Virus record (IMG/VR): IMGVR_UViG_3300017767_000081
Span: 1 to 29,364 of that record
Reading direction: 5' to 3' (one strand)
Source: a virus
DNA: 29,364 nt
Translations under genes and position numbers: made by a program
Notes under the pieces: generated by a model
What the model was told of the DNA's origin: nothing
Database searches by the model: none
What the model saw: the letters and a program-made list of their open reading frames with translations, nothing else
Shown here: positions 7,901 through 28,023 of the stretch, piece by piece
How the letters are laid out: the number at the start of each line of letters is the position of its first letter
How positions within the stretch are numbered: the stretch's first letter is position 1

Positions 7901-10558
7901 AGTCATAATCTGGTTTATGAAACTTTCACCTATATCTCTTCTTACAGCTATTGATTGATTAAGTAAAGATTGTTCTAATTGCTCAATCTCCTTTTCTAAA
8001 ATTTCAACTATTTGTGCATCTCCTGCATTGTCTAGTAATAGTTGACGTGCTGAAGCAAGTTTTTCAGTATTTGTTGTTAATTCTTGAGTCGCTTGGTCCA
8101 TCTCTCTCATAGACTGAGTAAATTGCATAACTCCTCTTGCTTGCTCACCTATTTTTTCTACAAACTTAAATGCAACAGTTAAAGCAATACCAATAGCTGC
8201 TAATTTACTAAAACCTTTAACCATACCCTTAAGAGTATTTGAGAGTCTTCCAGTTTTAGATTCTACGTCCTGCATAGCTAAAGCTAATTCACCGCCCTTT
8301 ATGTCTCCTGCGTTTAAGGCTTCTACGGAATCTTGAAGATTTTTTTGAAACACTGCACTGTCTTTAGCAATAATTGGCATAGCTTTTTCTAATCTTTTTC
8401 TATCGAATAATCCTCTAATACCTTTACGTCCATCGACGCTCATTGCTTTTTGGAACTCTAGACCAATGTCACCAGTTTTTGAAAGGTTTTCTCGTAGTAT
8501 ATTTATACCTTTTGTTTTGCCTCCCCTACCAAAAGGCATTAAATCTTTAATTAAACCATTTAATTCTACGACACGTCTTTTGTTTATAGTTCTAAGTCTT
8601 TTTAATCTTTCTACATCGTCTAATAAAACTTTATCAACTTTTTTAGACCCTAAACCACTAAATATACTGCCACCTTCTTTGATATTCCTTAATCCACCTT
8701 TTTTATCTAAAAGACTTTCTACTAATCTTTGATTTTTATTTACAGAACTTTTAGCCTTTAGAGCTCCAAATAAACTACTTGGGTCTTGTATTTGATTAAA
8801 TACAGAACGCTTTCTTAGTTTTCTTACTTGTCTGCTCTCTTTTAGGAAATCAGTTTGTAAATTTCCAACAGCAGCCATACTGCTACTACCAAATTTAGTC
8901 ATGGTTTGTCCTGGACCATCTAACATAAATTTCATTGACTGAGGAACTCTACCGCCGTAAATAGTTTCTAGTAAAGCTGGATTAGCTACTACAGCTTTAC
9001 GCATTTCAGCATTTTTACCAGCTTTTAATGGATTAAGACTTATTCCACCTTTAAGTCCTCTATTGTAAAAACCACCTTCTGATAACTCTTGTTGAAATTC
9101 TGGAGTACCTAAAGCTGACTTTTCTCCTATCATTCTCATTCCACCACGAGAACCAGGTCCTGTAAGTGTTCCTGCTTGTAGTGAAGCATTAAACGCAGCA
9201 GTATTATTAATAGCTGCTTTAGCGTTAAAGGCATACAGACCCATTTCTTCTCTTACTACTGCTAGGGAACCTTTATAAGCTCTCAAACCTGCAATTAATA
9301 CAGTTATACCTCCAAAAAATCTAAATGACATATTTAATGCAGATGTAAAACCTTTAACTAGAGCGAATATTGCATTGTTAAATTGTCTTACTATTTCTGT
9401 ACCAGTATCTATGTTCTCTAAACCGAAATCTAAAATCTCACCTTTTATAACATTTTTACCTTTTGTTATTTCAGAAACTAAAGTTGCATATCTTCTTTCT
9501 GCTTCTTCATTCAAAGCATTGTTTTCTATAAAAGCGTCATTAGCTACATCAATAGCTTCAAATAATGTATCGCTTGCTTTAGCTGTTGCTAATATAGCTT
9601 TCTGTGTTCTAACCTGACCCAAGCCAAGTTTCTGTAGAACACCTATGTTTGTCATACCTATTTTTTCAGTATCATTTAATCCGTCTATAAATAATGCGAC
9701 TGCTTTAGTTGAATCTACATCAAACAAACTCTTAAAACTATCTGTTGACATTCCTGCAACTTTAGAGAAAAGTTCTAAATTAGCTCCACCTAAAGCTATA
9801 GCTTCAGAAAGCTCAGTCATTAATCTGACTATTGCAGTAGCACCTGCTTGTGAAGGTTGACCAATAGCTTTTAGAACTGTTGAAAATGCTAATGCATCTA
9901 CTGCTGTTTGGTTCATTTCTCCACCAATTTGAGCAGTTGCTGTTGCTATTTGTAATGCTGCATTTACTATTTCAGATTCTGTAGCTGCAAAGTTGTTACC
10001 TAAAGCAACAAGAGATGAAGCTAAATTGTCTAATTCTGTTCCAGTAGTACCAGTAATTTCTTGAAGTCGAGCCATTGATAGAGCTGCTTGGTCTGCTGAT
10101 AGGTTTGTAGCTATTGTAAGTTTTTGTATTGTATCTGTGAAGCTTACTATCTCACTAGCAGCTACACCCAACTGACCACCAATAGCAGCAATTTCATTTA
10201 TTGCTTGTGTTGTAATTGGAGCAAGTTTAACCATATCCCTTAAACGTTTAGAAATATTATCAAAAGCTTGTTCAGCCTGTCTTGTATCTCCAGCTACATT
10301 TAAAGTCTTTTTAACATTTACAAATTGTTCTTCAAAAGCTGCAGCAGCGGCAATGCTTGCACCAAATGCTGCCACATAACCAGCACCAATCATAGCTGCA
10401 GATTGTTGAGTAATGTTTGAAGCTCTTCCTATTGCTTTTAACTTACCTGTTAAAGCAGAGTAGCTTTGTGCAATATCCTTATTGGCTCGGTTAAGTGATT
10501 GTTTATCATAACCAGCTTCTATTATTGCACGTACTTTAAATGCGTTTACTGATGCCAT
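4928..10558 (-). CDS. Tail tape measure protein (TP901 type)
   Basis: This 1876-aa protein is the longest in the window and follows the frameshifted chaperone pair, the standard location. Residues 55-330 show the TP901 tape measure core: an Ala-rich segment at 62-75, AIGGQLGVAASEIVSFTDTI near 125-144 and AIGQPSQAGATAIVRLM near 231-247. Hydrophobic segments at about 397-427 and near 790-815 could enter the membrane during DNA ejection. SSSPSMLMFREIGVPMIDG near 1330 is a motif common in the distal part of these proteins. Residues about 1420-1640 are Glu/Gln/Leu-rich and probably coiled coil. No peptidase or lysozyme motif was seen. By the general rule of about 0.15 nm per residue, the tail would be near 280 nm. 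Confidence 0.93.
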   Translation of the reverse strand: MASVNAFKVRAIIEAGYDKQSLNRANKDIAQSYSALTGKLKAIGRASNITQQSAAMIGAGYVAAFGASIAAAAAFEEQFVNVKKTLNVAGDTRQAEQAFDNISKRLRDMVKLAPITTQAINEIAAIGGQLGVAASEIVSFTDTIQKLTIATNLSADQAALSMARLQEITGTTGTELDNLASSLVALGNNFAATESEIVNAALQIATATAQIGGEMNQTAVDALAFSTVLKAIGQPSQAGATAIVRLMTELSEAIALGGANLELFSKVAGMSTDSFKSLFDVDSTKAVALFIDGLNDTEKIGMTNIGVLQKLGLGQVRTQKAILATAKASDTLFEAIDVANDAFIENNALNEEAERRYATLVSEITKGKNVIKGEILDFGLENIDTGTEIVRQFNNAIFALVKGFTSALNMSFRFFGGITVLIAGLRAYKGSLAVVREEMGLYAFNAKAAINNTAAFNASLQAGTLTGPGSRGGMRMIGEKSALGTPEFQQELSEGGFYNRGLKGGISLNPLKAGKNAEMRKAVVANPALLETIYGGRVPQSMKFMLDGPGQTMTKFGSSSMAAVGNLQTDFLKESRQVRKLRKRSVFNQIQDPSSLFGALKAKSSVNKNQRLVESLLDKKGGLRNIKEGGSIFSGLGSKKVDKVLLDDVERLKRLRTINKRRVVELNGLIKDLMPFGRGGKTKGINILRENLSKTGDIGLEFQKAMSVDGRKGIRGLFDRKRLEKAMPIIAKDSAVFQKNLQDSVEALNAGDIKGGELALAMQDVESKTGRLSNTLKGMVKGFSKLAAIGIALTVAFKFVEKIGEQARGVMQFTQSMREMDQATQELTTNTEKLASARQLLLDNAGDAQIVEILEKEIEQLEQSLLNQSIAVRRDIGESFINQIMTSTFGKNDDGVASGTALERLIEFGGMFAQDAEGTSERMSEAVGNSLMSMAEDGKLPTGNKIISNLLFEEGTFGAEDMLPSGFFRGTSAKIIEQLINESEAMNGEEFLKFLGIEGEKLEINNLEEIYMEIGGSIRDFIRGGATAETVLDDSFLAPVVDRVKELTKGMGLTNDELAQMVVDTSGFILAIQGMTGETVDAMDGFAAIDESAPAAKAIKAFLKQRLNDFEAAGTITRDELNNAGDDYNKIFDLFKNAQEKFINENKKGVDALMDEFGVTEMAALRLAIRIEDAFKKARSAMVDFTKPLPDNQFDDMTLLELVGQTQAKALAQAEFERVIQQLRKTNPLLADQLAQMGVQGGGLELGKRFATRPGMAVAQEQALAAAVGPDYLQDIFGTTNPGLTENEQLGEDIVDGIAKGFANREGALATALVDTMKFVVDETKLYIDSSSPSMLMFREIGVPMIDGIALAPFFMKDKVADAYVGVVKNAVDKAAAEVPGMQDFIDLLKGAGGSKKDIEFTLTAMGAGADPEGVVKDFAKMVSKGRQSAVGKLREAFNLTTDITKAERQQVQNAQTLAQSKFDYVMLLNSEKTIQRQLSETSRKRQKMERDGVAGNITLSERRDVLSQQISIEDRERRLRGDFTASEQLGINEQTKKVAELQRMFNLGATGALELESEQDRLRDMTGGFKSEAEKELFFIESALAKEQLQETERLVLLEDEQLQQLRDAEASLIFQLETFGDQKEIAFGKIEAASEGVANGIIALETAQLAYKEKAPEFLNELQVLEDHFGGVSDSVQAVLDATNAFGEVDNTKILTTLTPVVEMLSALNAAAAIAEQYFTADEVGPQNPDDPISKGGVGGLGMKLGYKFTDSYLRDMELLAEIYKPFRRDPVPTGMMGMRTKGYKYGGRGDTMRRALVGEYGPEEVKFVPGSGFLVKPLTQGGRGTNTIVENLNVNVTGVPADPTSARKAAVQIRGALNRLDREGIAGGGLSRR

Positions 10559-11311: not shown

Positions 11312-11962
11312 TTAGTTGACATCAAATGTACTTGTATCGTTTGTATTGTCAACGATTCTGAAAAGTTTATACTTTCCACCAGCATTACCAACATGAAATG
11401 TTGCGTCTGGAACAAGTAACTTAAACTCAGTTGCAATAACTACTTTTTGCGGAGCTTTTGCATGAGACATTGAGAATGCACCCACAGATACCATTCTAGG
11501 CATTTCTAAGTGCCTATCTGCACCTGCTGGACCTTCTGTAATAAGTAATCCAGCTAACTCAGCGAATGAGTTTGTGTCTGGAGTTGTTATTACATCGTAT
11601 CCGGCTGCAAAGTTGCTGTCATTTTCGCTAACGAAAGTGTCAGCTTGTCCCATAGCTACGGACAAGTTTTTAAGTGATGCCTGTGATAGCTCACCCATTA
11701 ATCTTGCTTCCTGAGCAGTCTTGATTGTTTTAATTGGGTCTACTTCTTCTGCTACCAATATGTCCTCGAATGTTCTATCCATTTCGAGTGTCCAACCATC
11801 TTCGGAATATCCGATATCTCTCCATTTAGCAGTATCTACTGCTGCCCAAGCTCCTGAACTGTCGCCTGGAAATACGAGAGAAGATGTTGTTCTATCAGCT
11901 ACATAAAGTACACCAGTACCGATTAATACTTCATTAATCGCACCGCTTGTATAAGTTGCCAT
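11312..11962 (-). CDS. Major tail (tube) protein
   Basis: This 216-aa protein is beta-rich and sits between the neck genes and the chaperone pair, the invariant place of the tail tube protein. The N-terminus (INEVLIGTGVLYVAD, then DIGYSEDGWTLEMDR near residues 50-64) matches the general pattern of actinophage and marine siphovirus tube proteins that open with an exposed arm and a first beta sandwich. The later part (KAPQKVVIATEFKLLVPDA) fits the closing strands. An AGGAG ribosome binding site precedes the ATG. The tube is built of stacked hexamers of this protein around the tape measure. The sequence alone does not show a family with certainty, but context makes the call strong. Confidence 0.85.
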   Translation of the reverse strand: MATYTSGAINEVLIGTGVLYVADRTTSSLVFPGDSSGAWAAVDTAKWRDIGYSEDGWTLEMDRTFEDILVAEEVDPIKTIKTAQEARLMGELSQASLKNLSVAMGQADTFVSENDSNFAAGYDVITTPDTNSFAELAGLLITEGPAGADRHLEMPRMVSVGAFSMSHAKAPQKVVIATEFKLLVPDATFHVGNAGGKYKLFRIVDNTNDTSTFDVN

Positions 11963-11973: not shown

Positions 11974-12303
11974 CTACTCTTCTTCTGTTACTATATCTTC
12001 GAAGATATCCTCTTGCGAGGAATCTACTTCGTCGTTTCCAATATTCGAATCAGATTCATTGTCTTCCTCTGATTCGTCATCATAAATGAAAATGTCCATG
12101 TTATTAGCTAACAATCTTTTTCCATCTTTGACACTAACCTCTACCCATGAGCTTGTTGTGAAAGTAGTACCTGTTACGGTATCACGTACTGTATCAGCCT
12201 TTAAGAATAAAGGATTTACTTTAATTTTCATTTTTTTACTCATAATGTTAAATGTTATAGGAGGTTCTACTTTTTCGTGGTATTTTAAAAATTTAAACTG
12301 CAC
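11974..12303 (-). CDS. Small acidic protein between tail terminator and major tail protein
   Basis: I do not recognise this 109-aa protein. It starts at a GTG (12303) overlapping the end of the preceding gene by 11 nt, so it is probably translated by coupling; no separate ribosome binding site is visible. The middle (KVNPLFLKADTVRDTVTG, then WVEVSVKDGKRLL) looks like a small folded domain. The C-terminal third is strongly acidic (many Asp, Glu and Ser), which suggests a disordered or DNA-mimicking tail. An internal ATG at residue 21 is possible as a start but lacks a Shine-Dalgarno sequence. Its place suggests a role in the tail tube or neck, but nothing more can be supported. Confidence 0.7.
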   Translation of the reverse strand: MQFKFLKYHEKVEPPITFNIMSKKMKIKVNPLFLKADTVRDTVTGTTFTTSSWVEVSVKDGKRLLANNMDIFIYDDESEEDNESDSNIGNDEVDSSQEDIFEDIVTEEE

Positions 12304-12763
12304 GATACATCATTGATAGACCAAAATCATACCTTCCAAGACCTGTGTTTATTTCATTCATTCTTGTAGGCATTTGTACTATATCAAATCCGTATATTTT
12401 TGCTTTTGTTGAACTTGTATCTGTTACAACATATTCATTTTCTGCATTAAAACATTCTTGAATTATTAAATTTGCTAAATTCATTGCACCACCATAATCA
12501 GGAGTTGATTTTGTACCATCTCCACCCCATTCTCCAGCAAAAGCTATGCATGGAAGTACTGCAGATTGTATATGTACTTGAGATGAAGGCCTTACTAATG
12601 TACCTCCTGCTCTCACAAATACTAAGAAAGGCATTGCTGCATCTCTAGGTAAATTAGTAGCTACTCTTTGACTTATAAGGTCAGTAACAGCAGTTTTGGA
12701 TAATATAAAATCTCTGAATATAATTTCAGCGTCTGGCGGTACTGGTTGTCCTGTTGTTGGCAT
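12293..12763 (-). CDS. Tail terminator-like protein (tail completion)
   Basis: This 156-aa protein has a clear AGGAG ribosome binding site. Its pattern fits the tail terminator family (DUF3168/gpU-like): an N-terminal helix, then SQRVATNLPRDAAMPFLVFV at about 36-55, a central strand pair, and a long helix (GGAMNLANLIIQECF). These proteins form a hexamer that caps the tail tube and docks to the head-closure protein. Its place just upstream of the tail tube gene supports this. The assignment rests on the Pro-rich LPRDAAMPFLVF motif and on order rather than on a domain search, so a different neck role remains possible. Confidence 0.65.
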   Translation of the reverse strand: MPTTGQPVPPDAEIIFRDFILSKTAVTDLISQRVATNLPRDAAMPFLVFVRAGGTLVRPSSQVHIQSAVLPCIAFAGEWGGDGTKSTPDYGGAMNLANLIIQECFNAENEYVVTDTSSTKAKIYGFDIVQMPTRMNEINTGLGRYDFGLSMMYRAV

Positions 12764-12789: not shown

Positions 12790-15700
12790 CTACTTATCAT
12801 ATCGTTTCTTTTGATTTCTTAACTTCATAGCTTCTATATAAAATTTATTTTTATCAAAGCTTATATATTCTTTATATGATTCTTTACCAGTTTGTTTTAT
12901 TTTGTAATAAGCTCTACCTGTGTCTGTTTTATGTAGAGAAACGTTTCCTCTTCTACTTTTTTTAACTGTTTTACTATGTTTAACAAAATCTCCAGTGTGA
13001 TTTAAATTAAGAAGATTTGGGTCGTAATCTGTTTTTCTAATAAGTTTAGCTAGTCCTAGCCATGCACTATCAGTCCATAAACGTATATCCATTTGCTGTT
13101 TTAGTTGATAAGCACTCGGTAAATTCATACGAAATATTCTTTCCATTTTCGCATCTATTAGTACCAAACTTATTGGTACTCTTGAAATTCCTTGATGTGG
13201 ACTTAAAAATGCCATAGATTGATAAAAATTTTTTAAAAAATCAGCAGCTTCTGCTTGTGACGATGCATTATGAGCACCAGCAGCAAGTATGGCTGCTATA
13301 TCTATATCATCAATAGTTTGTTCCATAAAAGCATCGTATAAATCATCAGCGACTTGTCTTCCAGCTTTTGCACCACTACCAACTCCAGAAGAACTTCCTA
13401 GCATTCGTATTTTATTTTTAGCTTTAGCAAGTGCTGTTTTTTTGTCAAGAATGTTTATATTAGCTTTTAAATGAGTTTCATCATTATGAACTGCAGGTCC
13501 TCTTTTCTTTTCTGCAACTATAAAACCAAAGTTTGTTTTTATTGTATTATATCTATCGGTTCGATTCCCCATACCTTTAGCTTCTAGAAAAGCATCTAAA
13601 GCAGCTATTTCTTTGGCTACTACGGCATCACTCAATTCTCCTGTTTTACCTGCTTGCATTCTTGTAGTGAAAGCAGCAATCTGATTTCCTACTTTGTCAG
13701 CAACACTTGAATCATTCATTATTGCATTCACCATTTCAGAGTTATCGTTCATGAAATGACTAGCAGAAATACCTGTATCTTCAGCAAGCTCTTGTGCAAT
13801 AGACCATCTCTCACCACGTAAAAATCTTCCATCTGCTCCAACATCTTGCATACCTAATCTCAAACTTTTGTCCCATCTTATTTCTTGAAAATCAGAAACT
13901 CCTAAACTTGACAGTATGGCATCTTCTCTACTATCAAAATTATATATTTTTCCTATTTGTCTTCCTGTAGCATTACCACCTGCAAAGTCTGGCATTAAAG
14001 AACTAATTACAGGTAAGTTATCATCTAACTCAAATTCTTTTCTAAATCCCTGTGCACCTGAAAATGTAACAAAACCTGGAGTACCATTTTCATCATAACC
14101 AAAAGCTATGCCCTGACCTAAGAGTCTTTCTATTTCATCAAATTCTTTTGAAACGTCTATTGACATTGTTTCTTTTGCAAGATTAGCATTTAATCTTGCC
14201 ATTAATGCAGAGTCCATTTTTATACCTTGAGTAGCTCGTCTTAGCCTTTTGTGCATTTCAAATTTAAAATGTTCTTTGTTAGCTTCCAACAAGACAGCAA
14301 GTGTCATTGTTAAACTTCTAAAAGCATCTTCAGTTAAAATTTGATTACCCATAGCTTGCAGTGTTTGTCCTGTAACTCTTGAATAAGTTTTAGCAACAAA
14401 ACCTGCTTGAACTCTAAGTGCCCTTAATAACTCATTTTTTTCTTTTATTTTTCCTTGGGCTGTTAAAAGTTGAATTACAGGAGAAGCTTCTGAATCTGCT
14501 GTTCTAACAAATTGTCTAATTAATTCAGTTTCAAACTCAGCTCCAAAAAACATTTCTCTCATTCTATTGATAGGATGATTAGGATTTTGAGTATCTTTGC
14601 CAAGGTCATTTGTATGCCAAATGCTTCCAGTTCCATTTGGTTTAGTACCTAAAACGAAAGTTTTCTGCATAGCTTCATAAGGATTAGCTATAATAGCTTG
14701 AATATTTATATTTGAATCAAATCCACTCATAGCTAATTCAACTTGTGCTGCTACAGATTCAGCGTTTTGTGCTCCTTGAAAAGCTGCTTTACCTTTTTCG
14801 GTACCTCTTAAAGTCTCAGCTACTCTTGTTTTAGGAGTTTTATGACCTTTTGAAAGTGCATGTCCAGCAGTATCAAAAACCATAGGAACAAGAGGTGTAT
14901 AACCAGTTTCTACACTGATATTACCATCTCTATTCCTAAAAACGTTTTCCACTAAAGGAGATTCAAAACTTCCTGTTAAAAAGTTAAAGTTTGAAGTTCC
15001 ATCGCTATAAGTTTTACTAGTACTACCTCCTGGTTTCATTTGTATTTTTGAGTTTGCATTTTTGAAACCACCTAATTTATTTAAGTTAAACTGTTTATTT
15101 TTACTAGGACCTGTTCCTGTTTGTAAACCACCATCAACAATCCCAAACATTTTTTGTTCTCTTATACTTAAATTTTTAGATACATCATCTATATTTATTT
15201 GACCAAATCCACCACCTTTCTTAAATAAAGTCATTGCTCGTTGGTTTGCTAAACGGACTCCTTCATTACTAAAGTTTGCTTTTCTGTGGTCACTTACAGA
15301 TTTTTTAGCATCAGCAAACATTTTACTTACTCTACGTTGACCTTCAAAATCCATTCTTTTCTTTTCGTTGAATTTTTTTCTAGTAGCATTGAATACACCA
15401 GTACCCTCATCACTCATTCTAAATACTGCGTTATGAATACCTGCTTTACTAGCACTAGCTTTAAATGTTGAACCTTTATCAAAAATACCTAAAAATGCAG
15501 CAGCTTCTGAAGCAGCGGTACCTATAAAAAAACTAGGAAGATAAAACATTCTATCTCCTCTGTTTTTTAATTTACCTTGAGTGTCTGTGGCGGGACCACC
15601 AAACTCTATTGAAACAGCATCTCTAATTTTGTCAGCAGTTTGAGATTTCTCATTCTGACCACCAAAAGATACTTGTTCCCTAAATACAAAACCACTTCCA

Positions 15701-17985
15701 TCTTCTTCGCTCTTACCGTTAAGTTCAATATTGTGCATGTGAATAGACTCAATAATATGCTTTTGAGATGGAACATAATTGTTATGAGAATTTACAAAAG
15801 TGCTTTGACCTCTTCTAACTTCGTTACCACTTTCAAATTTATCTGGTGTGTGAGTTGAGAAATCATCATAATCTGTTACAGGAGGAATTTTAGTATTAAA
15901 TTGTTTTTTGTAATTTTTTTGACTTTTTTTAAATTCTTTTTCTACATGATTTAGTATCTGTTCAGTAGGTACTCCATCTTCAATAAATTTTGTAATTTCA
16001 CGCTCAAGTTTCTGATTCATTCTTTTACCATATTCATCTGTATTTATTGGTTTGCCATCAGGAGAATGCATCTTTACATCTTTAAAAGCTACACTATTTA
16101 CAAATTCATCAATAAAATCATTATTACGGTTTGCAGAACCTGCTATTCCTAAATCTCCCATATTTGCTTTCATTACGTTTTTAGCTATCTCAGCTCTTTT
16201 CCGTCTTGAATTTTGACTGTTTTCCATATAGTCTCTTTTTGATATAGGATATTTTTTCATTCTTTTATCAATTCGACGCTTGTTTTCTATATAGTCATCA
16301 AGACCACTTACATCACTATCTGTTAAATTTAATTCTGTTAATCTAATATCATTATTTGGAAAGTTATTTATGTGCCTATCAGCTTCATTAAATACAGAAC
16401 CGTATTGAAAATTTTGATTATAATCAGACTTTACTTGAATTAATTCTTTTCTTGCTTCCATAAAATGAGAACTGGGGATTGATGTCTCAGAAAAAGCGCC
16501 ACTTGTTCTTAAAACTTTTTTTGGGTCTATAACATTTAATACATCATCAGCAATATCTTCAAAACCTGCTCTACCTATCTCTCCAGTTAATTCTTGTAAT
16601 GCAGAAAAATCTCTAGACAAATCTGCTGCAAGTTTTGTAGATGAAGTTTCATTAGAGGACATGTTACCTGAAAACAGTACAGAAAAAATTCCCTGAGTTA
16701 TTTGTCCCATTCCAGCACCATCACTTAAATTCATACCGACTCTTCCCATCTTTGTTGCATAATTATTAAATGCTTGTATTACTTCAGGATTAGCAGGTAT
16801 GTTTGTAGCTAGTTTTAATATTTCTGCTGCAGAATCTCCTTTAAAGCTATTAAAAGTATTATTACTGTTTAAAAAACTAAGAAAAGCTTTGTCATGTATT
16901 TCTTTTGATAGATTTGTAGTAAATTGATTTGTATCCGGATTAGTTTCTAAACCTTTTGTTCTTTTAAGCCTCTCTGCATTAGCACCTCTAAATCCTAATG
17001 TACTTTTCTTTTCTGGTGTTTGTACATCATCTAAAAGACTTCTATAAGTTAAGTTATCAAATTTATCACTACCTTTTTGTCTAAATTTTTGATTCCTAAA
17101 TTTTTCATTGGCGCCAAATTGTTTCATAATTTCTTTAGAATTTGAAGATTTTTTAAACGTTACACCTTCAGCAGTTAACAAATCATCTATAGCCATAAGC
17201 TTTGCAGTAGCCTCAATAGCGTCTCTTTCTTGAAACATTGAGTCCGACATGTTCATAAGTTTTAATACATGAGCATCTGTATTTGCAGTATGAGGTTCAC
17301 TAACAACAGTCTTTCTAAACTTTTTTTGTTTCATTTGTTGATTTCTTCTAGCTTCTCTTGCTTGAATATATGGATTGTCACGCCAAGGGTCCGGTGCTGT
17401 TTTTATAGCTTTGTAATATGTTAAAGCTTTCCACTTAGCAAATACATTTCCTCTTACTGCTAACTGAGCTTGTTTTTGCACTTCTTTATCGAAAACTTTA
17501 CCGTCACCTATAGCTTCAACGAAAACTTTAAGCTGTTCCTTTTTACCCATATTTCTTGTGTAATGTAGGAATGCAGCTTTTTGCTGACCTACATAAATAT
17601 TTGCTGCTCTGTCAACAGCACCAACACCTGTAGGTGAAGATAGTGCCGATGTTATACTTCCAGCTGCTCTGTTTACAAAACTTGCACCACCTAAAAATCT
17701 ACCTCTACCTGTTAATGCACTTAAGTCACCTTGGAAAGCTTTTTTTATAGAAGCTGCGTTATTTGAAAGTTGACCAATAAAGTAAGGAGCAGCACCCAAC
17801 ATACCAGCATCAAAACCTGGTAATATTGCTGCCGCAGATGTTAAGTTATAACCTATTGCATAAAGTTTGTCTTTTCTTTTAAGACCAGATAAGGACTTAA
17901 ATAAGAATATTTTACTGTTATCTTTTCTCTGTGAAGGAGATTGATAAAGACCTACACCAGACTTTTTACTTAGCCCGAAAGCCAT
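12790..17985 (-). CDS. Giant 1731-aa protein of unknown function in the neck gene cluster
   Basis: I do not recognise this protein. It begins by TAATG overlap with the head-closure gene and ends just before the tail-terminator gene. In typical siphoviruses that slot holds a small HK97 gp10-like gene of about 130-150 residues, so this is more than ten times the usual size. Residues 41-75 are hydrophobic and Ala/Gly-rich, and a second short hydrophobic patch (LPSFFIGTAASEAAAFLGIF) lies mid-protein. The rest is Lys/Asn/Phe-rich and mostly helical-looking with many charged stretches. The C-terminal ~70 residues are very basic (KKSRRG to KKRYDK). I saw no polymerase, nuclease, protease, lysozyme or toxin motif. 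A virion-internal ejected protein or a large neck protein are possible. The frame is uninterrupted, so the gene is surely real. Confidence 0.85.
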   Translation of the reverse strand: MAFGLSKKSGVGLYQSPSQRKDNSKIFLFKSLSGLKRKDKLYAIGYNLTSAAAILPGFDAGMLGAAPYFIGQLSNNAASIKKAFQGDLSALTGRGRFLGGASFVNRAAGSITSALSSPTGVGAVDRAANIYVGQQKAAFLHYTRNMGKKEQLKVFVEAIGDGKVFDKEVQKQAQLAVRGNVFAKWKALTYYKAIKTAPDPWRDNPYIQAREARRNQQMKQKKFRKTVVSEPHTANTDAHVLKLMNMSDSMFQERDAIEATAKLMAIDDLLTAEGVTFKKSSNSKEIMKQFGANEKFRNQKFRQKGSDKFDNLTYRSLLDDVQTPEKKSTLGFRGANAERLKRTKGLETNPDTNQFTTNLSKEIHDKAFLSFLNSNNTFNSFKGDSAAEILKLATNIPANPEVIQAFNNYATKMGRVGMNLSDGAGMGQITQGIFSVLFSGNMSSNETSSTKLAADLSRDFSALQELTGEIGRAGFEDIADDVLNVIDPKKVLRTSGAFSETSIPSSHFMEARKELIQVKSDYNQNFQYGSVFNEADRHINNFPNNDIRLTELNLTDSDVSGLDDYIENKRRIDKRMKKYPISKRDYMENSQNSRRKRAEIAKNVMKANMGDLGIAGSANRNNDFIDEFVNSVAFKDVKMHSPDGKPINTDEYGKRMNQKLEREITKFIEDGVPTEQILNHVEKEFKKSQKNYKKQFNTKIPPVTDYDDFSTHTPDKFESGNEVRRGQSTFVNSHNNYVPSQKHIIESIHMHNIELNGKSEEDGSGFVFREQVSFGGQNEKSQTADKIRDAVSIEFGGPATDTQGKLKNRGDRMFYLPSFFIGTAASEAAAFLGIFDKGSTFKASASKAGIHNAVFRMSDEGTGVFNATRKKFNEKKRMDFEGQRRVSKMFADAKKSVSDHRKANFSNEGVRLANQRAMTLFKKGGGFGQINIDDVSKNLSIREQKMFGIVDGGLQTGTGPSKNKQFNLNKLGGFKNANSKIQMKPGGSTSKTYSDGTSNFNFLTGSFESPLVENVFRNRDGNISVETGYTPLVPMVFDTAGHALSKGHKTPKTRVAETLRGTEKGKAAFQGAQNAESVAAQVELAMSGFDSNINIQAIIANPYEAMQKTFVLGTKPNGTGSIWHTNDLGKDTQNPNHPINRMREMFFGAEFETELIRQFVRTADSEASPVIQLLTAQGKIKEKNELLRALRVQAGFVAKTYSRVTGQTLQAMGNQILTEDAFRSLTMTLAVLLEANKEHFKFEMHKRLRRATQGIKMDSALMARLNANLAKETMSIDVSKEFDEIERLLGQGIAFGYDENGTPGFVTFSGAQGFRKEFELDDNLPVISSLMPDFAGGNATGRQIGKIYNFDSREDAILSSLGVSDFQEIRWDKSLRLGMQDVGADGRFLRGERWSIAQELAEDTGISASHFMNDNSEMVNAIMNDSSVADKVGNQIAAFTTRMQAGKTGELSDAVVAKEIAALDAFLEAKGMGNRTDRYNTIKTNFGFIVAEKKRGPAVHNDETHLKANINILDKKTALAKAKNKIRMLGSSSGVGSGAKAGRQVADDLYDAFMEQTIDDIDIAAILAAGAHNASSQAEAADFLKNFYQSMAFLSPHQGISRVPISLVLIDAKMERIFRMNLPSAYQLKQQMDIRLWTDSAWLGLAKLIRKTDYDPNLLNLNHTGDFVKHSKTVKKSRRGNVSLHKTDTGRAYYKIKQTGKESYKEYISFDKNKFYIEAMKLRNQKKRYDK

Positions 17986-18335
17986 TACTCAAACGTATGG
18001 GCATTAATGATTGTTGAAAGAACCCGTCCTTGCCTACTTTTTGAACGTCTTACACTATCTATTTCATAGTATAAATCTGAATCAACTACATCTTGTAATC
18101 TATCACTAGCTTTTATATCTGAGTCACCATGTACATAGATAATAAACTGTTTTATTACAGTATTCCTACCGTCTCTATTTTCTGTTTCTCCTTGTTCTAC
18201 TATTTTACAAGCAAGATTAGTAAATTGATTACTCCAAGTATCTGATAATTCGCCTCTTTCATCTACAGTAGCTTGGTCTAACCTTTGTACGTTTATTTTG
18301 TGTTCAAATAATACTTTTTTTAGTTGACCTACCAT
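17985..18335 (-). CDS. Head closure (head-tail adaptor) protein
   Basis: This 116-aa protein fits the phage head-closure/adaptor family (SPP1 gp16-like, PF05521 pattern). It has an N-terminal strand with HKINVQRL at 12-19, ERGELSDTWSN at 26-36, a central barrel segment (KQFIIYVHGDSDIKASDRLQ) and a final strand with the DLYYEIDSVRR motif. Proteins of this family form a ring below the connector and plug the packaged head before tail joining. It follows the gp6-like connector after one intervening gene, which agrees. Length is normal for the family. Confidence 0.75.
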   Translation of the reverse strand: MVGQLKKVLFEHKINVQRLDQATVDERGELSDTWSNQFTNLACKIVEQGETENRDGRNTVIKQFIIYVHGDSDIKASDRLQDVVDSDLYYEIDSVRRSKSRQGRVLSTIINAHTFE

Positions 18336-18993: not shown

Positions 18994-19647
18994 TTAGATA
19001 AAGAAATTTTTTCTATATTTACCAAGAAGTTGTAAGTCAGCAGCAGAAAGTATAGCTATCGAGTTCATTCCTATATTTCCTACATATTGTACAGAATAAT
19101 CACCTAAGGATTCAGAGTCGGCTGCAGTAAAGTTTGAAGCTTCAGTTGCTGAATGTGCTTTAATTTCACCAGGTTCTTGTTGCGCAGAAAGAACTAATGA
19201 TGCTTCTAAAACTCTAGCAGAAGCTCTTGCTGTTGCTACTTTAAAAGCTCTAGGTAAAGCAGGTCCTGTTCCTCCGCCAGTATCGTATCCAGCTGTATAG
19301 GTAACGACTATATTATCAGGATAAGCAAAAGACCACCTACTTCCTATTCTTCTAATCCTACCGTTATCGTACCAAAGAAATTCTGCTTGATTACCATAAG
19401 TTAGAGTATTTCCATCTTCAACTACAGAGCTAACAGCAACTACTGGTCTCTGCTCTAAGAATAGTTCTCTTGTTTGATTTCCTGACATAGTTTCAGTATG
19501 CGTAGCATAATCAATGTCATAACCTACATAGTCACGAATTACATCCTCAACAATAGGGATTAATTCATTTGTTAAATGTGTTTCTAATGAAGAGTTAAAG
19601 TTTATCTGCGCAAAAGATTCAACATCTGCAGCAGTACAGAAAGCCAT
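18994..19647 (-). CDS. Head-tail connector protein (gp6/gp15-like adaptor)
   Basis: This 217-aa protein has a very good ribosome binding site (GGAGGT). Residues 1-45 are the helical CTAADVESFAQINF and VIRDYVGYDID segments typical of gp6-like connectors. A beta hairpin follows (RELFLEQRPVVAVSSVVEDG), then the diagnostic NIVVTYTAGYD strand at about 107-117 and a helix beginning LPRAFKVATARASAR. These proteins assemble as a dodecamer beneath the portal and extend the DNA channel. It lies two genes after the small post-capsid ORFs, the expected neighbourhood. Confidence 0.82.
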   Translation of the reverse strand: MAFCTAADVESFAQINFNSSLETHLTNELIPIVEDVIRDYVGYDIDYATHTETMSGNQTRELFLEQRPVVAVSSVVEDGNTLTYGNQAEFLWYDNGRIRRIGSRWSFAYPDNIVVTYTAGYDTGGGTGPALPRAFKVATARASARVLEASLVLSAQQEPGEIKAHSATEASNFTAADSESLGDYSVQYVGNIGMNSIAILSAADLQLLGKYRKNFFI

Positions 19648-20289: not shown

Positions 20290-21531
20290 TTACATCTGTG
20301 TTATTTTACAGAATGCTGTTGGTTTGTAAATTGCAAATCCTAATCTCATTGTCAATCTAATTGCCAATTGATTTTTTGCAAAGAAGTCACTATGGCTGTC
20401 AGAAACAGCAAGGTCTACACCTTCTCTCATAATAACTTGTGCAGCGTCTCCGCCACCAAATTTACCGACTAACATTGTACCAGCTGCGACGACTGTAGAT
20501 GGGACAACTTTTAGACCCCAAAGTCTTGGAGCAGCGTCCGCACCAAATCCGCCTGCGACTACGAATAAAGGATTCTTAGCTGCAGCACCACTTGTTGTGG
20601 TTGCGACATCTGTTACAGATGTTATGATTTGATACCAGTCTTCAGGATGCATGATGATAGCGTCTGCTTCAACAAATGCGTCCTTTCTGATTTCTGTTAT
20701 TGCTTGATAAATTTGTCCTAATCTTCCTAATTCTCCAGAGTATGAACCAAATGCAAAGGAATTAATTCCTGATTTGTTTAATACACCAGTTAAGTTAGGA
20801 GCTGAACCGTTACCGTCCATAAGTTGATTGTCTAATCTCAATTTCATCATTGTTGATAGTCTTGAGTTGACATAACCTTGGATTCCAGCAACATCAGCAA
20901 GCAACTCGTCAGTTACAGGTAAGAAAGTAGCAATCTTTCTGATTGACTCTGTCTTTTCTGTAAATGCAAGTGCGGATTCGTTAGCTGAGCTAATGTCTCC
21001 CGCTTCTGCGATTTCACCAGCATTGTTGGTGAATGTGGATTCTTCAAGATACACATAAGCATTTTGGCTTGTTTGAATTTGGTCAAACAATCCGATTACG
21101 CTATCTGGGTCTCTTAAAGCGGTTTCCAATATTCCAGGAGCCCTTAAGCTCTCTGGTGGATAACCTGTTGTATTTAAGGTTGTTTTAAATTCTACTTGTG
21201 AATCTACACCTTTAACACCTTTTTCTGTATATGCTTTGAAAGCATCAGAATTTGCGAATTGCTCACCAATAGATGATGGGCCCTTCTTTTCAGGCATTGC
21301 ATTAGGTATAGAATTTACAGGCTCATTATCAACCTCTAAAGCTTTCTCGTTTTGAAGCCTTGATTCTTCTACTTTTAAATCATCAACAAGTCCAGAAAGT
21401 TCGTCGTTGAAGCCTTTGATTTTCTCTTTGGCTTCAGCTGTGTACTTACCGTCTTCTTGTGAATCAAAAGCAGATTTCAATTCTTCACGAGACTTTGCAA
21501 TTTGCTCTTTGAGCTTTGCTACTTTACTCAT
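20290..21531 (-). CDS. Major capsid protein (HK97 fold)
   Basis: This 413-aa protein has the layout of HK97-type capsid proteins. The N-terminal ~60 residues form a charged coiled coil (KLKEQIAKSREELKSAF), the delta/scaffold domain normally removed by the prohead protease. The body contains PGILETALRDPDSVIGLFDQ, an E-loop region with YVYLEE and AGEIAEAGDISSANE, and the helix segment RKIATFLPVTDELLADV. The C-terminal half has LRLDNQLMDGNGSAPNLTGV and the P-domain strands ending near AIRLTMRLGFAIYKP. AGGAGA ten bases upstream supports the start; it overlaps the protease stop codon. The protein follows the protease and precedes the connector genes, as expected. Confidence 0.95.
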   Translation of the reverse strand: MSKVAKLKEQIAKSREELKSAFDSQEDGKYTAEAKEKIKGFNDELSGLVDDLKVEESRLQNEKALEVDNEPVNSIPNAMPEKKGPSSIGEQFANSDAFKAYTEKGVKGVDSQVEFKTTLNTTGYPPESLRAPGILETALRDPDSVIGLFDQIQTSQNAYVYLEESTFTNNAGEIAEAGDISSANESALAFTEKTESIRKIATFLPVTDELLADVAGIQGYVNSRLSTMMKLRLDNQLMDGNGSAPNLTGVLNKSGINSFAFGSYSGELGRLGQIYQAITEIRKDAFVEADAIIMHPEDWYQIITSVTDVATTTSGAAAKNPLFVVAGGFGADAAPRLWGLKVVPSTVVAAGTMLVGKFGGGDAAQVIMREGVDLAVSDSHSDFFAKNQLAIRLTMRLGFAIYKPTAFCKITQM

Positions 21532-21545: not shown

Positions 21546-22724
21546 CTATATATTATCTTCTACTTCTAATTCAGCATCCAATGACTCAGCAATATTTTGC
21601 TGTGCCTCTACCCATAAGGCTTCAGCCTCTTCATCAACGGATTCAGTGTTATCTTCATCTTGGACTGGTTCAACCTCTGGGTTTGTTTGAACCTCGACTT
21701 CCTCAGTAACTTCTTCAGATACCTCGTCTTCTTGTTCCTCTAATGGTAGTTCTTCCTCTACGTCAACGCTTTCCTCAGTCACTACATTGTTCTCACCTAC
21801 GTTATCAATGAATTGGTCTAATTCGACCCATGCATCTTGTAAGTCTTCCTGAACTGCACGTAGTGCTTCAGTGGCTTTTTCGCCTAACTTCCTTCCATCT
21901 TTAGCACGCAACATCGCTATGGCGGTAGCTCGTACCATCAAGTCGTTTAATGCGGCAAGCACATCTTTGACTTGTTCCGAAAATGCTTTAGGGGCATCTT
22001 CTGAAATCTCTTCTTGAGTCTCTAACTGAGATTCTTTAAGTTTGTAGAGTTCCTTTAAATAAACTGTAGGCTTCTCTAATAACTCTTGAACAGTTACTGA
22101 CTTTTCTGTAGCCAACCCATCTACTTCAACTTCTGGATTAACCGAATCTGCTTCATTTATTGTTTCAGATACTGGTTCTTTACCAAAAGAGGAAGAGCTA
22201 AGTACAGCTTTTTCTTCTTCATTACCTAATATTTCTTTAATTAGCTCATCATTTGATTTGATTGCCATTGTATAGGTATCTTGATTTGCTCCAACAAGAA
22301 CAGGTGAGACTTCAAAAACTGTTAGGTCTTTTAAATACCTAGCATCTTTTTCTTCTTCGCCTTCACCAATTTTGCCTTGTTCAGCATCGTTAACTCTATA
22401 ACCGAATGACCATTGTTGCATATCAGCCATATTTTTAACTATCTTATAAGCTTCTTTACCGGATTCTGTATCCATAAAAAACTCACCAGAAAATGTAGCT
22501 TTATCGCCATCACTTTCTATTGAACCTTTACCAATAGGCATGTCCCACTTATGAGCCCATACCATAGGTACAGAACCAGATTTGAAACCTGATTTAATCG
22601 ACCCTGGGAGTACAACGTCTCCATCAGAATCGAGTGAATTGAATACAGAAAAAACAGCGGAAACTTTTCCCTCGGTCTCAGATTTGAGTTCGAGGTCTAT
22701 GTTTTTAACTTCTTTTTCAGACAT
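21546..22724 (-). CDS. Prohead maturation protease (HK97 gp4-like) with acidic C-terminal tail
   Basis: Residues 1-160 form an HK97-type prohead protease: FSVFNSLDSDGDVVLPGS at 25-42, the catalytic His58 in VWAHKWDMPIGKG, the catalytic Ser106 in QQWSFGYRV, and an acidic residue in LKDLTVFEVSPVLVGAN. The enzyme cleaves scaffold and capsid N-termini inside the prohead. The family core is about 160-200 residues, but this protein has 392. The rest includes a helical segment (residues ~225-305) and a tail of about 85 residues very rich in Glu, Val and Asp, which may act as an in-built scaffold. Upstream is AGGAG with a good start. Confidence 0.9.
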   Translation of the reverse strand: MSEKEVKNIDLELKSETEGKVSAVFSVFNSLDSDGDVVLPGSIKSGFKSGSVPMVWAHKWDMPIGKGSIESDGDKATFSGEFFMDTESGKEAYKIVKNMADMQQWSFGYRVNDAEQGKIGEGEEEKDARYLKDLTVFEVSPVLVGANQDTYTMAIKSNDELIKEILGNEEEKAVLSSSSFGKEPVSETINEADSVNPEVEVDGLATEKSVTVQELLEKPTVYLKELYKLKESQLETQEEISEDAPKAFSEQVKDVLAALNDLMVRATAIAMLRAKDGRKLGEKATEALRAVQEDLQDAWVELDQFIDNVGENNVVTEESVDVEEELPLEEQEDEVSEEVTEEVEVQTNPEVEPVQDEDNTESVDEEAEALWVEAQQNIAESLDAELEVEDNI

Positions 22725-22798: not shown

Positions 22799-25642
22799 TT
22801 ATTTAATAGGCTTAATAACTTTTAATTTTGAAATGGGCATTGTCACTTTTCTATCTGTTTTTTTGTGACTACCGTCTTCCATGATTGCCCATACTTGCAT
22901 TGTCGCTTCTTTCTTTTCGCTATTAATAGAAACTACAATTCCGTGAACTGTTGAAGGTGGTTGAGGGTCTTTGTTGATTGACCAACTTACTGACTGCCCC
23001 ATACGGACACTAGAAGCTTTCTCTTCTACGTCTAGAGATTTTTTAGAACTTAACGGATGGTTGCTAGGTAGTAAATCTTGGTCATAAGGTTTTCTCTTAA
23101 ATCTACCAGTTCTTAACGCATGAATAAAACCGTTAACTCTACCTAATCCCCACTGGTCAGCAGATGTAACATTACCTCTTACTGAACCAGGACTTGTTCT
23201 ATAAGCACCTACGCCTCTGTTAAATACAGATGTCAAAGTTCTTAGATTAGCCCTATACTTAGGTTTTTTTGCATTGTGTTCTTTTACTTTATTAACTAAC
23301 GCTTTCCTAACTCTTGCAGAAACAGCTTTTGTTTCAGTGAGATGTTTTTCATAAATATCATCAGCCATTTCCTCTGCAGCTTTTCTCCTAGCTCTTACAA
23401 TTTTCTTTTGTTCATTGATGACTCTCTTCATACCAGAAACACCAATGTTAGAAACTCCACCCCATTTGATATTGGCAACTGTTCCAGCAAGTCTAGTGTT
23501 ACCTTGATGTCTACCCATAAAACGTTCTCTTCTTCTTACCCAATTTAAAACTGATTCGCTTCTATCTCCTGATTGATATTTAGTCCATCTTGAATAAGCA
23601 TCATTACCAGTGAATGAGGTTGGGGGATTTCCTCCATTACCACCACGTCTCCAAATTTCTGGCCAGTTCTCTTTTAAATCTTTAGCGTAACCGTAAGGAA
23701 ATTGTTTATATTTAGAATTAGAAATTCTTACTTGCTTGTCATCACCTGGGCTTGGAAAGTTAGTCCTATCTTTTTTTGGCTTTTCAGCTTTCTTAGGTTT
23801 TACAGCTTCTTCATATGCATCATGTGTTTTACAAGGCATAAATACTTTTTTACCATTTACTTCATGAGTGTGAACACCAACTGCACATGATAATTCTTTT
23901 GACCTATTCATTGCTTCACCTGGATTATCAAAAACATCTTTAGGATTAGCAGCTTTGCTATTTTCTGGTTCTATTTCAAATTGTGATTCCATAAGTACTT
24001 CTGCTTCTTCTAAACTTACACCTAGTTCTTCAATATTATCATAATTTTTTTTAGGTTTGCGTTTTAAAAAGTTTTCTGCTTCTTTTCTAGTATCAAAACA
24101 TTTTATTACTTTGTTTGTTTCATGACTAAGTACACAGAAAGCACCATTAGGCATCTTGGCAATATACTTTTCTTCACTTCTTGGTTCATCATTCATTACA
24201 ACTTTTGGGTTCCTAGTGGATTCTGGTATGCCTTCCTCTGTTCCTAAAGTATCTTTTTGTTCTGTAGAAATAGAAGTATCAGCAGCTTGTAATTGTTCTT
24301 GTTCTCTTCTAGAAGCATCTCTATTTTGTTGAGGTGGGTCATTAAGAATTGCTTGACCCTCATCATCTACTTGAATCATGTTTAAAGGTCTAAGATAAAC
24401 ATCATGGTTTTGGTCTACCTCTAGTCCTACAACTTTTCTAGCTTCACCAATAGTTATCCAACCACCAGATACACCCATGTTTACTCTTTTGTAAAGATTG
24501 TCTACATCAGGTTGTAGTGCTCTAACAGATTGAACATCGTAATCACAAATCAAACCTTTATCGCCAAAATCAGGAATTAGTAATTGATGCGTTAATTCAG
24601 CAGCTACTGTTTTCCACATAGGTATCAATTTTTGTTCTGTAAAAAATTCTTTAAGTTCTTTTGTATTGTTAAAAGTGGCTGAATCTAATCCAGCTCCAAG
24701 ACCAGCGAGAATAGCTGGGACACCTAAAACTGCAGATACTCTTTCTTCCGGTATTCTTCTTAAGGAAGCTAGTCTCATTTGTTCAGGTGAAAAAGAAACT
24801 ACCTCTACGTTCATTGAACCTGATAAAACCATTGGAGCACCTCTGTTGGCTCCACCAAACTTTTCTTTATACATTGCAGATATTGACTCTGCTTCTTCTC
24901 TTGTAGGACCTCCATAGCCATCTGACCTTGGAGTAAGTACTACACCAGGAACTGCCATGTTATCTAACAAGGAAAAGGTAAATTGTCCTGCAGCTTCGTC
25001 TCCTAAAATTTCTCTTAATACTGTTTTAAGTGGAGCGTGTCCTCTTCTGTGGTCATTTGGGTCTATTCCTTGTCGGATATGTACCATATCTTCAAATGGT
25101 ATTTTTACAAAATCACCTTTACCGTAAGCGTAATATTCATAATGAGTAATTAGCTTTTGTTCAGTTCCTCTTACTTCTACCATATGAGGCATTAAAGGTA
25201 CTAGTTCTACAACTTGTCCTTGTTTATTACGATTTTTGTATAAGTAAGCATCACCAAGAGTATTGAGTGCCATAATTATGTAGTGAGAAAGTAAGTTTTG
25301 AGACATAAAAGGATTAGGTCTATGATAAAGCTCTGCTAATGGATGATTATATTGTATTTCTCTATCGCCAAAAATTTGGTCTCTTTTTACAATTTGTAAT
25401 GGAGGTTCTGAAAAAGAAGTTGATAAAACATTCAAACAAGCAATTACAGCAGAGTTGCCTGAACCATCTCCTATTTCTTTTAATTTATTGGATTCTACAA
25501 ATCCTGATGAGGTATTGTAACCAAAAATGGAGGCATCGTTGCCAAACATTTGATTATAATTCGATTGTAATTTCTCTTCATTCCCTCTTTGTGAAGGTCT
25601 AAAGACATCTAAAGCTTTTTGAAATCTACTTTTTTCTTCCAT
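22799..25642 (-). CDS. Portal protein with large multi-module C-terminal extension
   Basis: Residues about 20-430 form an HK97-type portal: SGFVE and GNSAVIACLNVLS near the start, HPLAELYHRPNPFMSQ at 100-115, GDAYLYKNRN, the stem region MRLASLRRIPEERVSAVLGV at 289-308 and the clip-like SATFNNTKELKEFF. The portal forms the ring through which DNA is packed and ejected. Families usually end near residue 400-450, but here another ~500 residues follow: FCVLSHETNKVIKCF (502-516), a VHTHEVNGKKVFMPC module (590-604), a FPYGYAKDLKENWPEIWRRGG module (648-668), a FNRGVGAYRTSPGSVRG to DQDLLPSNHPL module (807-864), and a small barrel at 881-947 (VSWSINKDPQPPSTVHGIV). From memory, these modules occur attached to other phage head proteins. 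The frame is unbroken. Confidence 0.88.
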   Translation of the reverse strand: MEEKSRFQKALDVFRPSQRGNEEKLQSNYNQMFGNDASIFGYNTSSGFVESNKLKEIGDGSGNSAVIACLNVLSTSFSEPPLQIVKRDQIFGDREIQYNHPLAELYHRPNPFMSQNLLSHYIIMALNTLGDAYLYKNRNKQGQVVELVPLMPHMVEVRGTEQKLITHYEYYAYGKGDFVKIPFEDMVHIRQGIDPNDHRRGHAPLKTVLREILGDEAAGQFTFSLLDNMAVPGVVLTPRSDGYGGPTREEAESISAMYKEKFGGANRGAPMVLSGSMNVEVVSFSPEQMRLASLRRIPEERVSAVLGVPAILAGLGAGLDSATFNNTKELKEFFTEQKLIPMWKTVAAELTHQLLIPDFGDKGLICDYDVQSVRALQPDVDNLYKRVNMGVSGGWITIGEARKVVGLEVDQNHDVYLRPLNMIQVDDEGQAILNDPPQQNRDASRREQEQLQAADTSISTEQKDTLGTEEGIPESTRNPKVVMNDEPRSEEKYIAKMPNGAFCVLSHETNKVIKCFDTRKEAENFLKRKPKKNYDNIEELGVSLEEAEVLMESQFEIEPENSKAANPKDVFDNPGEAMNRSKELSCAVGVHTHEVNGKKVFMPCKTHDAYEEAVKPKKAEKPKKDRTNFPSPGDDKQVRISNSKYKQFPYGYAKDLKENWPEIWRRGGNGGNPPTSFTGNDAYSRWTKYQSGDRSESVLNWVRRRERFMGRHQGNTRLAGTVANIKWGGVSNIGVSGMKRVINEQKKIVRARRKAAEEMADDIYEKHLTETKAVSARVRKALVNKVKEHNAKKPKYRANLRTLTSVFNRGVGAYRTSPGSVRGNVTSADQWGLGRVNGFIHALRTGRFKRKPYDQDLLPSNHPLSSKKSLDVEEKASSVRMGQSVSWSINKDPQPPSTVHGIVVSINSEKKEATMQVWAIMEDGSHKKTDRKVTMPISKLKVIKPIK

Positions 25643-27714: not shown

Positions 27715-28023
27715 CTATTCTTCTTCACTAGATACAGGATTGTACATTGTGTACTTAACAGTAATTTCTTCTCCAGCTTGAATGTCTCTTAAGAAATATA
27801 AATACCTTACTCTTTGGACTTCTACAATTTTTGCATTAGGTTCTTCACTATGGTTAATAAATCCACCAAGAGGAGTCCTGTATAGTTTTTTTGTTATAGG
27901 GTCTGTCACATGAGTTATACCAGCATTAAGACCTTTTTCAATATTTATATCTGAAAACAATCCTAAGTTATCTATTGGTGATTTACGAATTGTTAAACCT
28001 TCAGGTAATGGTGTGTATGTCAT
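27715..28023 (-). CDS. Minimal SET-domain protein
   Basis: This 102-aa protein shows the short SET fold: NLGLFSDINIEKG at 19-31, the hallmark FINHSEEPNAK at 55-65, and AGEEITVKY at 83-91 with the conserved Tyr91. SET proteins are S-adenosylmethionine-dependent lysine methyltransferases; the NHS motif and the final tyrosine normally line the active site. It lacks the pre- and post-SET cysteines of eukaryotic enzymes, as is usual in phage versions. Its target is unknown. No clear ribosome binding site is seen. Confidence 0.82.
   Translation of the reverse strand: MTYTPLPEGLTIRKSPIDNLGLFSDINIEKGLNAGITHVTDPITKKLYRTPLGGFINHSEEPNAKIVEVQRVRYLYFLRDIQAGEEITVKYTMYNPVSSEEE

Follow-up and report, generated by a model that had tools for sequence, protein, structure and literature searches.

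A giant protein, probably an enlarged tail completion protein, in the neck gene slot of uncultured phages

How does a protein of 1731 residues come to occupy a place among the neck genes of a long-tailed phage that would ordinarily be held by a small gene? The locus that raises this question lies at positions 12790..17985, on the minus strand, of IMG/VR virus record IMGVR_UViG_3300017767_000081, the whole of which (29,364 nucleotides, hereafter ‘the window’) was analysed. An initial annotation of the window had described the protein (the ‘giant’) as an unknown one in the slot of a small neck gene. It does not look like an unrelated protein that has taken over this slot: the gene order, homology to a sister clade of shorter proteins and the predicted fold of the corresponding domain in that clade indicate that the giant is very probably the small neck gene itself in an enlarged form, that is, a tail completion protein (TCP) of the gp10-like or Ne1 slot.

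The uninterrupted frame of 5.2 kb is as the initial annotation described it. An open reading frame (ORF) that starts with ATG runs through the interval on the minus strand without an internal stop, and the plus strand contains many stops over the same stretch; shuffling the window 100 times by mononucleotide produced stop-free stretches of at most 184 codons, as compared to the 1731 of the giant ORF. Judged from its coding sequence, the protein is under purifying selection, because the ratio of nonsynonymous to synonymous substitution (dN/dS) falls below 1 in pairs of homologues: it is 0.19-0.40 over seven pairs (several synonymous distances being near saturation), 0.37 between the giants of the window and of locus L097 (44% identical over its length) and 0.62 over the 491-residue N-terminal stretch held in common with L004. 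These ratios, together with the existence of 43 further homologues, rule out an artefact of assembly or frame.

The protein of the window has a mass of 192 kDa, an isoelectric point (pI) of 9.5 and no cysteine. The hydrophobic N-terminal segment ascribed to it could not be recovered, as the maximum of the Kyte-Doolittle mean over 19 residues is 1.36; no transmembrane-like segment is present, and a transmembrane or secreted protein was ruled out on that ground. A very basic C-terminus had also been described, which holds for the window protein (net charge +16 over residues 1601-1731) and not for the family, where the C-terminal 100 residues carry net charges of -8 to +13 (40 proteins). The giants as a whole are basic, with a pI of 9.2-10.2 in 39 of 40 and of 9.1 in one further homologue.

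Searches for known families agree with the earlier impression that the protein bears no recognisable motif. No credible match to the giant, including any to a virion RNA polymerase, toxin, enzyme or defence family, was obtained from Pfam, PHROGs, NCBIfam, PADLOC or PDB sequences, and no fibre, lectin or immunoglobulin (Ig) family was matched in Pfam, PHROGs or general family scans. No convincing match emerged when the window giant and three homologues were compared by tblastn with 50,697 phage records, and exact-peptide searches in viral and genome contigs gave nothing. The stray matches that did appear (best E 0.0043) covered short stretches and were mutually inconsistent, so that no described family was matched clearly over most of the protein's length. 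Those considered and dropped as weak, small or lacking support from sequence were a RAMP protein (8d9e_B, E 0.0043, only 82 residues, 1516-1597), methionine adenosyltransferase (E 0.011), a T7-like core protein (E 1.5) and helices of the AR9 RNA polymerase (Z 6.5, 73 residues), the last two found with a 905-residue model of the window protein, and relaxases (E 1.8 and worse), found with a model from clade 3 (described below). A second tape measure was likewise rejected, since neither PhageMin_Tail nor the PHROG tape measure families matched the giant. At the Pfam gathering score, PF04883 (HK97-gp10_like) matched neither the window giant nor 24 full-length homologues nor six domain constructs; as a sequence family, by these profile searches, the giant is outside PF04883.

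The position of the gene is more informative. In the window, the giant is preceded by a head closure gene (17985..18335, minus strand; Phage_HCP 4e-5, PHROG head-tail adaptor 3e-5, the Phage_HCP score of 24.5 bits being slightly below the curated cut-off of 25), whose stop overlaps the start of the giant as TAATG. Beginning 26 bases past the giant's stop is a gene for a protein of 156 residues (12293..12763, minus strand), presumed from its position and look to be the tail terminator, which has no significant family match in Pfam or PHROGs. The slot named in the initial annotation, between head closure and tail terminator, is thus the one observed (with the terminator assigned by position), and it is equivalent in all 43 homologues: in each, the distance from the head closure stop to the start of the giant gene is -1 to +6 bases, and the terminator match begins 0-63 bases past the giant's stop.

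These homologues were gathered by using the major capsid protein of the window (20290..21531, minus strand; PF05065, 4.6e-33) as bait, which led to 80 viral loci, 53 of them with a match to head closure; one relative search returned at least 596 stretches with capsid relatives, of which 80 were kept. Fifty loci had an ORF of at least 200 residues right after head closure, the stop being on the contig in 39 and the frame running off the contig in 11. Among the 39 stop-bounded frames, 36 encode 1047-1774 residues (some are mutually identical), and the three short ones (L004, 491 residues; L009, 554; L051, 278) end at most 46 bases from the contig end and were treated as cut off. Once the conserved domains, another capsid and a motif of the capsid had also served as queries, the set comprised 44 complete giants from IMG/VR contigs, no two of them identical, including that of the window and with lengths of 1047-1791 residues; close pairs are among them, and a 97% identity cut leaves 30 of the 36 that belong to clades 1 and 2. 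No small gene was seen in the slot among the sampled loci; sampling was ranked by capsid or conserved-domain similarity or by an exact capsid motif, and small-gene slots in more distant phages lie outside its reach. In two annotated phages that rank high among the capsid matches (31-32% capsid identity) and whose slot was inspected, roughly the equivalent place is taken by proteins of 148 and 161 residues.

The giants diverge far more than the capsids of their loci. The capsid of the window is 72-100% identical to those of its relatives, and for 28 of 29 other giants, the summed blastp bits against the window giant amount to 0-8% of its self score, the cut-off L004 being the exception at 26%. 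What conservation there is falls at residues ~25-205 and ~735-835, and by length and sequence, the family divides into three clades: clade 1, which contains the window giant (10 proteins, 1670-1791 residues), clade 2 (26 proteins, 1108-1317 residues) and clade 3 (8 proteins, 1047-1238 residues, including L070, L005, L007, L034 and L136).

In the window, the first conserved stretch (residues 25-205; 17371..17913; profile A6, 21 sequences) is basic and ends in an A-P-D/N motif at residues 197-199, and the second (residues 735-835; 15481..15783; profile A5, 21 sequences) carries the pattern SI .. VSFGG .. AD .. SIEFGG .. YLPSFF .. A. Between them, according to between-clade alignment, lies an insertion (residues 206-734; 15784..17370) that includes a compact, mostly helical part (residues 335-525; 16411..16983; see below), and after them comes a C-terminal extension (residues 836-1731; 12793..15480) that is recognisable only within clade 1; all of these are on the minus strand. 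In clade 3, the second stretch is found near residues 165-280 and the two halves are contiguous. The insertion varies from about 530-610 residues in clade 1 and about 260-370 in clade 2 to none in clade 3, and a C-terminal extension of 570-943 residues is present in every giant of all three clades. Neither insertions nor extensions are similar between clades (hhalign Prob < 1); for clade 2, the insertion was taken to begin at residue 171 and so shares residues with the N-half, to which overlap its matches to N-half profiles are due.

The two halves themselves can be followed across the clades. The N-halves of clades 1 and 2 are clearly homologous by profile alignment (hhalign Prob 99). The C-half profile A5 aligns to clade-3 profiles with Prob 94.5-95 and E 8e-8 to 4e-8, and hmmsearch with A5, which derives from window-type cores, matched L136 of clade 3 at 5e-4. 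Together with the fold match given below, these alignments make the window protein look like a TCP-type domain split by an insertion of ~530 residues and followed by ~900 more.

The contiguous domain of clade 3 (L070:5548-6270) was modelled with AlphaFold 2 from alignment A11, which has 25 rows, including 15 window-type cores, and the resulting model has a mean predicted local distance difference test score (pLDDT) of 71.5 and a predicted template modelling score (pTM) of 0.61. Its elements are a helix at 94-109, a hairpin at 115-126, short strands, a short helix at 172-177 and a long helix at 198-221, and the fold characteristic of TCPs (a long N-terminal helix, an extended loop with a beta-hairpin and a short helix, and a C-terminal helix) can be recognised in it. 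When 257 chains, all of them Foldseek's own candidates, were re-aligned to this model with VIA-align 2, the top chain was 9mu2_P, the TCP of the 80alpha/SaPI1 neck (Z 8.6; root-mean-square deviation 3.2 A; 107 of 109 residues; model residues 68-219), with the next row at Z 4.2. This match agrees with the gene order, in which the giant lies between head closure and the presumed terminator.

The window protein was modelled over residues 1-905 from a 30-row alignment, with a mean pLDDT of 59.8. Over residues 731-830, the blocks reach a pLDDT of 73-90, and strands, a short helix and the C-terminal helix follow one another as expected; prediction of the N-half is poor (blocks of at most 66, except for 181-200, at 82-86); and a compact, mainly helical domain is predicted within the insertion at residues 341-520, where 10-residue blocks have a pLDDT of 66-91. 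The structure prediction that the initial annotation had proposed as a check was therefore fruitful for the clade-3 domain and left the 905-residue model of the window unmatched, and a TCP fold in the window protein is inferred through its homology to clade 3.

Several observations weigh against the identification of the giant as a TCP. The fold match concerns the clade-3 homologue and not the window protein, whose own model matched no TCP or other fold (though most of that long model was barely tested); for neither model did Foldseek by itself reach a match with E <= 0.001; and hhalign scored the giant against 13 proteins of the TCP slot (12 HK97 gp10 proteins and relatives, and one morphogenesis protein of a neighbour phage) no better than against six decoy families of unrelated neck and tail proteins. 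The N-half aligns to clade 3 over 106 collinear columns up to the shared A-P motif, with E 1.1e-3 and Prob 20.6, and its score of 29.3 lies above that of the reversed alignment (14.8) and only just above the best of 60 column shuffles (28.4), for which reason the link is suggestive, not overwhelming. One might suppose that a protein of another kind, for example an internal head ejection protein, has replaced the small gene, and that the likeness to gp51 of 80alpha is a chance resemblance of helix-hairpin-helix arrangements. A sequence link to PF04883 is indeed lacking, and a Z of 8.6 is little above the 7-8 that is typical of the best match for unmatched models against 48,161 chains. However, only 257 chains were compared here, the match covers nearly the whole of its target, with a lead of 4.4 Z over the row that follows, and the protein matched is precisely the one expected from the gene order; a replacement of this kind consequently seems very improbable.

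If the giant is an enlarged TCP, where in the virion would it be found? The best guide is gp51 of phage 80alpha, which is described as a monomer inside the neck that caps the end of the DNA, with a hairpin that forms a sheet with the N-termini of the tape measure and two helices that pack against three tape measure helices, and which is presumed by the authors of that account to exit with the tape measure and DNA (PMC11661146). In SPP1, the corresponding gp16.1 is reported to aid head-tail joining and to be essential for the routing of DNA into the cell (PMC11099176). By analogy, one copy of the giant would sit inside the neck channel, where it would close off the terminal base pairs of the genome and contact the N-termini of the tape measure. 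The insertion, which begins just past the A-P motif, where in 80alpha the N-terminal helix gives way to the extended DNA-facing loop, would then be directed towards the adaptor and portal; the C-terminal extension, which follows the helix that is packed against the tape measure in 80alpha, would run down the tail; and the two would fill the lumen of neck and tail. Upon infection, the whole giant would be expelled with the tape measure, ahead of the DNA, and its nearly cysteine-free, fast-changing extensions might route DNA through the envelope, act in the host, or both. As a whole, the reading of the giant as a TCP present in a single lumenal copy, capping the DNA and leaving with it and the tape measure, is the best explanation that we can offer, and a moderately probable one; for lumenal position with co-ejection taken separately, the chances appear close to even. 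The initial annotation had suggested packaging and ejection into the host, or an enlarged neck, and this guess contains the model favoured here.

Composition offers some support for the lumenal model. Counted over the collected sequences (many portals and tape measures being partial), cysteines per 1000 residues number 0.17 in the giants (none at all in 36 of 44) and 0.00 in both tape measure and tube, a level like that of lumenal and tube proteins and unlike that of the neck rings; the adaptor has 3.7, head closure 11.8, the terminator 9.2, the portal 5.2, the capsid 2.3 and the protease (read stop to stop) 4.7, with the terminase within 2.3-11.8. The basic character of the giants (a net charge of about +90 to +100 per 1000 residues within the first 200-215), as opposed to the acidic capsid, adaptor and tube proteins, was also counted in favour of this model. 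Both arguments have their exceptions. The window protease lacks cysteine in 392 residues, so that depletion of this residue is not exclusive to lumenal proteins; one of 40 giants has a pI of 6.3; in clade 2, insertions and extensions carry almost no net charge; most relatives have a basic portal as well; and the tape measure, which would probably be the giant's partner in the lumen, has an acidic pI of 5.1 in the window, unlike that of 80alpha. To these must be added that the compact domain of ~190 residues predicted within the insertion may be too wide for the neck channel.

The clade-specific insertion and extension might further be effectors, active for example in counter-defence or host takeover, with the TCP turned into a carrier of polymorphic cargo. 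In this reading, each virion would carry a single giant of 110-200 kDa, tethered at the DNA end through its conserved TCP domain, and this protein would enter the cell before the genome; exchange or diversification of its insertion and extension would far outpace change in the neighbouring capsid genes. We regard this elaboration as doubtful.

The same rapid divergence of the extensions, set against capsids that are 72-100% identical, could also reflect an arms race at the virion surface, if the TCP-type domain served as an anchor at the head-tail junction for extensions that form a collar, whiskers or neck fibres involved, for example, in adsorption to receptors or particle surfaces. The compact domain of the insertion would sit more easily outside the particle, and p143 of T5, which occupies the equivalent slot, has been placed at the side of the tail tip; the authors of that description, however, question whether p143 belongs to the family (PMC11784142), and gp51 of 80alpha, the only canonical TCP for which a described location was found, is lumenal (PMC11661146). 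As the giant moreover matches no fibre, lectin or Ig family and has the cysteine level of lumen and tube proteins, an external structure is considered unlikely. The giant might instead be an assembly factor that acts while tail or neck is built, such as a scaffold or a second ruler around the tape measure, and that is absent from the mature virion or present there only as a fragment. Its gene does sit among assembly genes, and its length tracks that of the tape measure (Spearman 0.62, p 0.004, 19 genomes; 0.73, p 0.0065, in the 12 genomes outside clade 1). These 19 pairs rely upon open-frame lengths (except for the 1876 residues of the window tape measure) and upon completeness of the tape measure as judged by eye, after removal from 27 records of G005, G014, G019, G022 and G025 (cut or split), G020 and G026 (duplicates) and G010 and G018 (no match). 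Clade membership nonetheless confounds the correlation. Among seven genomes of clade 1 it comes to -0.14, with length variation of 1.9% in the giant against 16% in the tape measure, and a role as a ruler is therefore unsupported there. Combined with the lack of any tape measure profile match in the giant, this makes an assembly factor improbable.

The remainder of the window follows the usual siphovirus order of terminase, portal, protease, capsid, adaptor, head closure, giant, terminator, tube, tail chaperone and tape measure. The large terminase is found at 25655-26872, followed on the minus strand by the portal (22799..25642, 947 residues), the prohead protease (21546..22724; PF04586, 1.4e-20), the head-tail adaptor (18994..19647; phrog_442, 1.5e-24), the major tail (tube) protein (11312..11962; phrog_2175, a protein with Ig domain, 4e-13; major tail protein phrog_476, 1e-3) and the tape measure (4928..10558; phrog_13339, 3e-66), which at 1876 residues is indeed only slightly larger than the giant, as the initial annotation had remarked. 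The portal is a second enlarged head-tail protein of this phage, and its C-terminal ~500 residues have weak matches to DUF5824 and DUF3721, both below the cut-offs. The protease has a long acidic C-terminal part (the whole protein has a pI of 4.1 and a net charge of -62), which we presume is perhaps a fused scaffold. Residues 1776-1875 of the tape measure (4934-5233, minus strand) are 72-74% identical in six clade-1 relatives, for which the aligned middle parts are mostly 25-40% identical.

Other genes of the window were noted in passing, all on the minus strand. A cysteine-rich, endonuclease-VII/HNH-like gene (18339-18980) sits between adaptor and head closure, does not occupy that place in part of clade 2 (for example in L032, L035, L046 and L052) and is perhaps mobile; in clade 3 (L005, L007, L034 and L070), two additional ORFs of 97-120 codons, which the window lacks, lie between the HNH gene and head closure. 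At the edge of the window, a cut-off gene (3-2864) encodes 954 residues with a Laminin_G_3 or concanavalin A-like domain (8.6e-9) and is likely to specify a receptor-binding tail protein. A protein of 102 residues (27715-28023) has a SET-domain match over its C-terminal part (PF00856, 1.1e-8), matches PHROG 28741 (of unknown function) and is, from this domain match, a possible phage protein methyltransferase.

The host is likely, but unproven, to be actinobacterial, because a gene for a WhiB-type regulator is present in the window (29051-29320, minus strand; E 2e-21) and in some of its relatives. A WhiB match was obtained in 14 of 28 records examined, the window included and many being fragments, and among 14 control genomes only Corynebacterium glutamicum matched. 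WhiB proteins are described as confined to actinobacteria (PMC3861242), and have been reported in phages of ‘Ca. Actinomarinales’, one of them of 29 kb with a guanine-cytosine content of 35.5% (PMC7771536). A search for the capsid in genome contigs of 84,980 species gave 215 pattern matches, none of which was a relative.

TCPs are widespread in long-tailed phages. Since every one of the 43 further complete slots collected from this phage group contains a giant, there may be room in or around the neck channel for far more protein than has been assumed. These proteins are a natural case in which to ask whether TCPs are lumenal and ejected, and if their extensions are in truth delivered, these phages, uncultured and probably actinobacterial, would contain a store of early-infection proteins that has yet to be explored.

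How do the giants compare with the TCPs already described? Those have been singled out as a ‘remarkable exception’, the other core proteins being well documented, and are summarised as mostly without pairwise similarity and as having sizes of 112-255 residues (PMC11099176), with 56-231 residues given for Ne1 proteins (PMC4362835). All 44 giants fall outside the resulting descriptive range of 56-255 residues (size being no defining property), and going by these two sources, they are at least 4 times as large as the largest TCP described. No giant TCP was found in the literature at the level of titles and abstracts, subscription papers being mostly outside reach. The HK97 gp10 family (PF04883) and the SPP1 gp16.1/Ne1 superfamily occupy the same slot as the giants, and the order of motifs in the HK97 gp10/Ne1 C-half (SI .. 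strands .. Y/E-F-G-G/T .. P-F .. A) is similar by eye to that of the giant, although neither Pfam nor hhalign supports the comparison. Lambda gpZ, at 192 residues (PMC11099176), has a far smaller insertion. Tape measure proteins resemble the giants in being huge, free of cysteine and likely to share a common compartment with them, and differ in that no tape measure profile matches the giant and the window possesses a separate, bona fide tape measure gene. Another close counterpart is gp51 of 80alpha (9mu2 chain P), which shares with the giants the slot between head closure and terminator and, with their clade-3 domain, the predicted fold; it has no detectable sequence similarity to the giant, and with 115 residues against 1047-1791 it lacks both insertion and extension. 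The kind of protein, a TCP, is thus a known one, and its size class and architecture are, as far as our searches reach, new.

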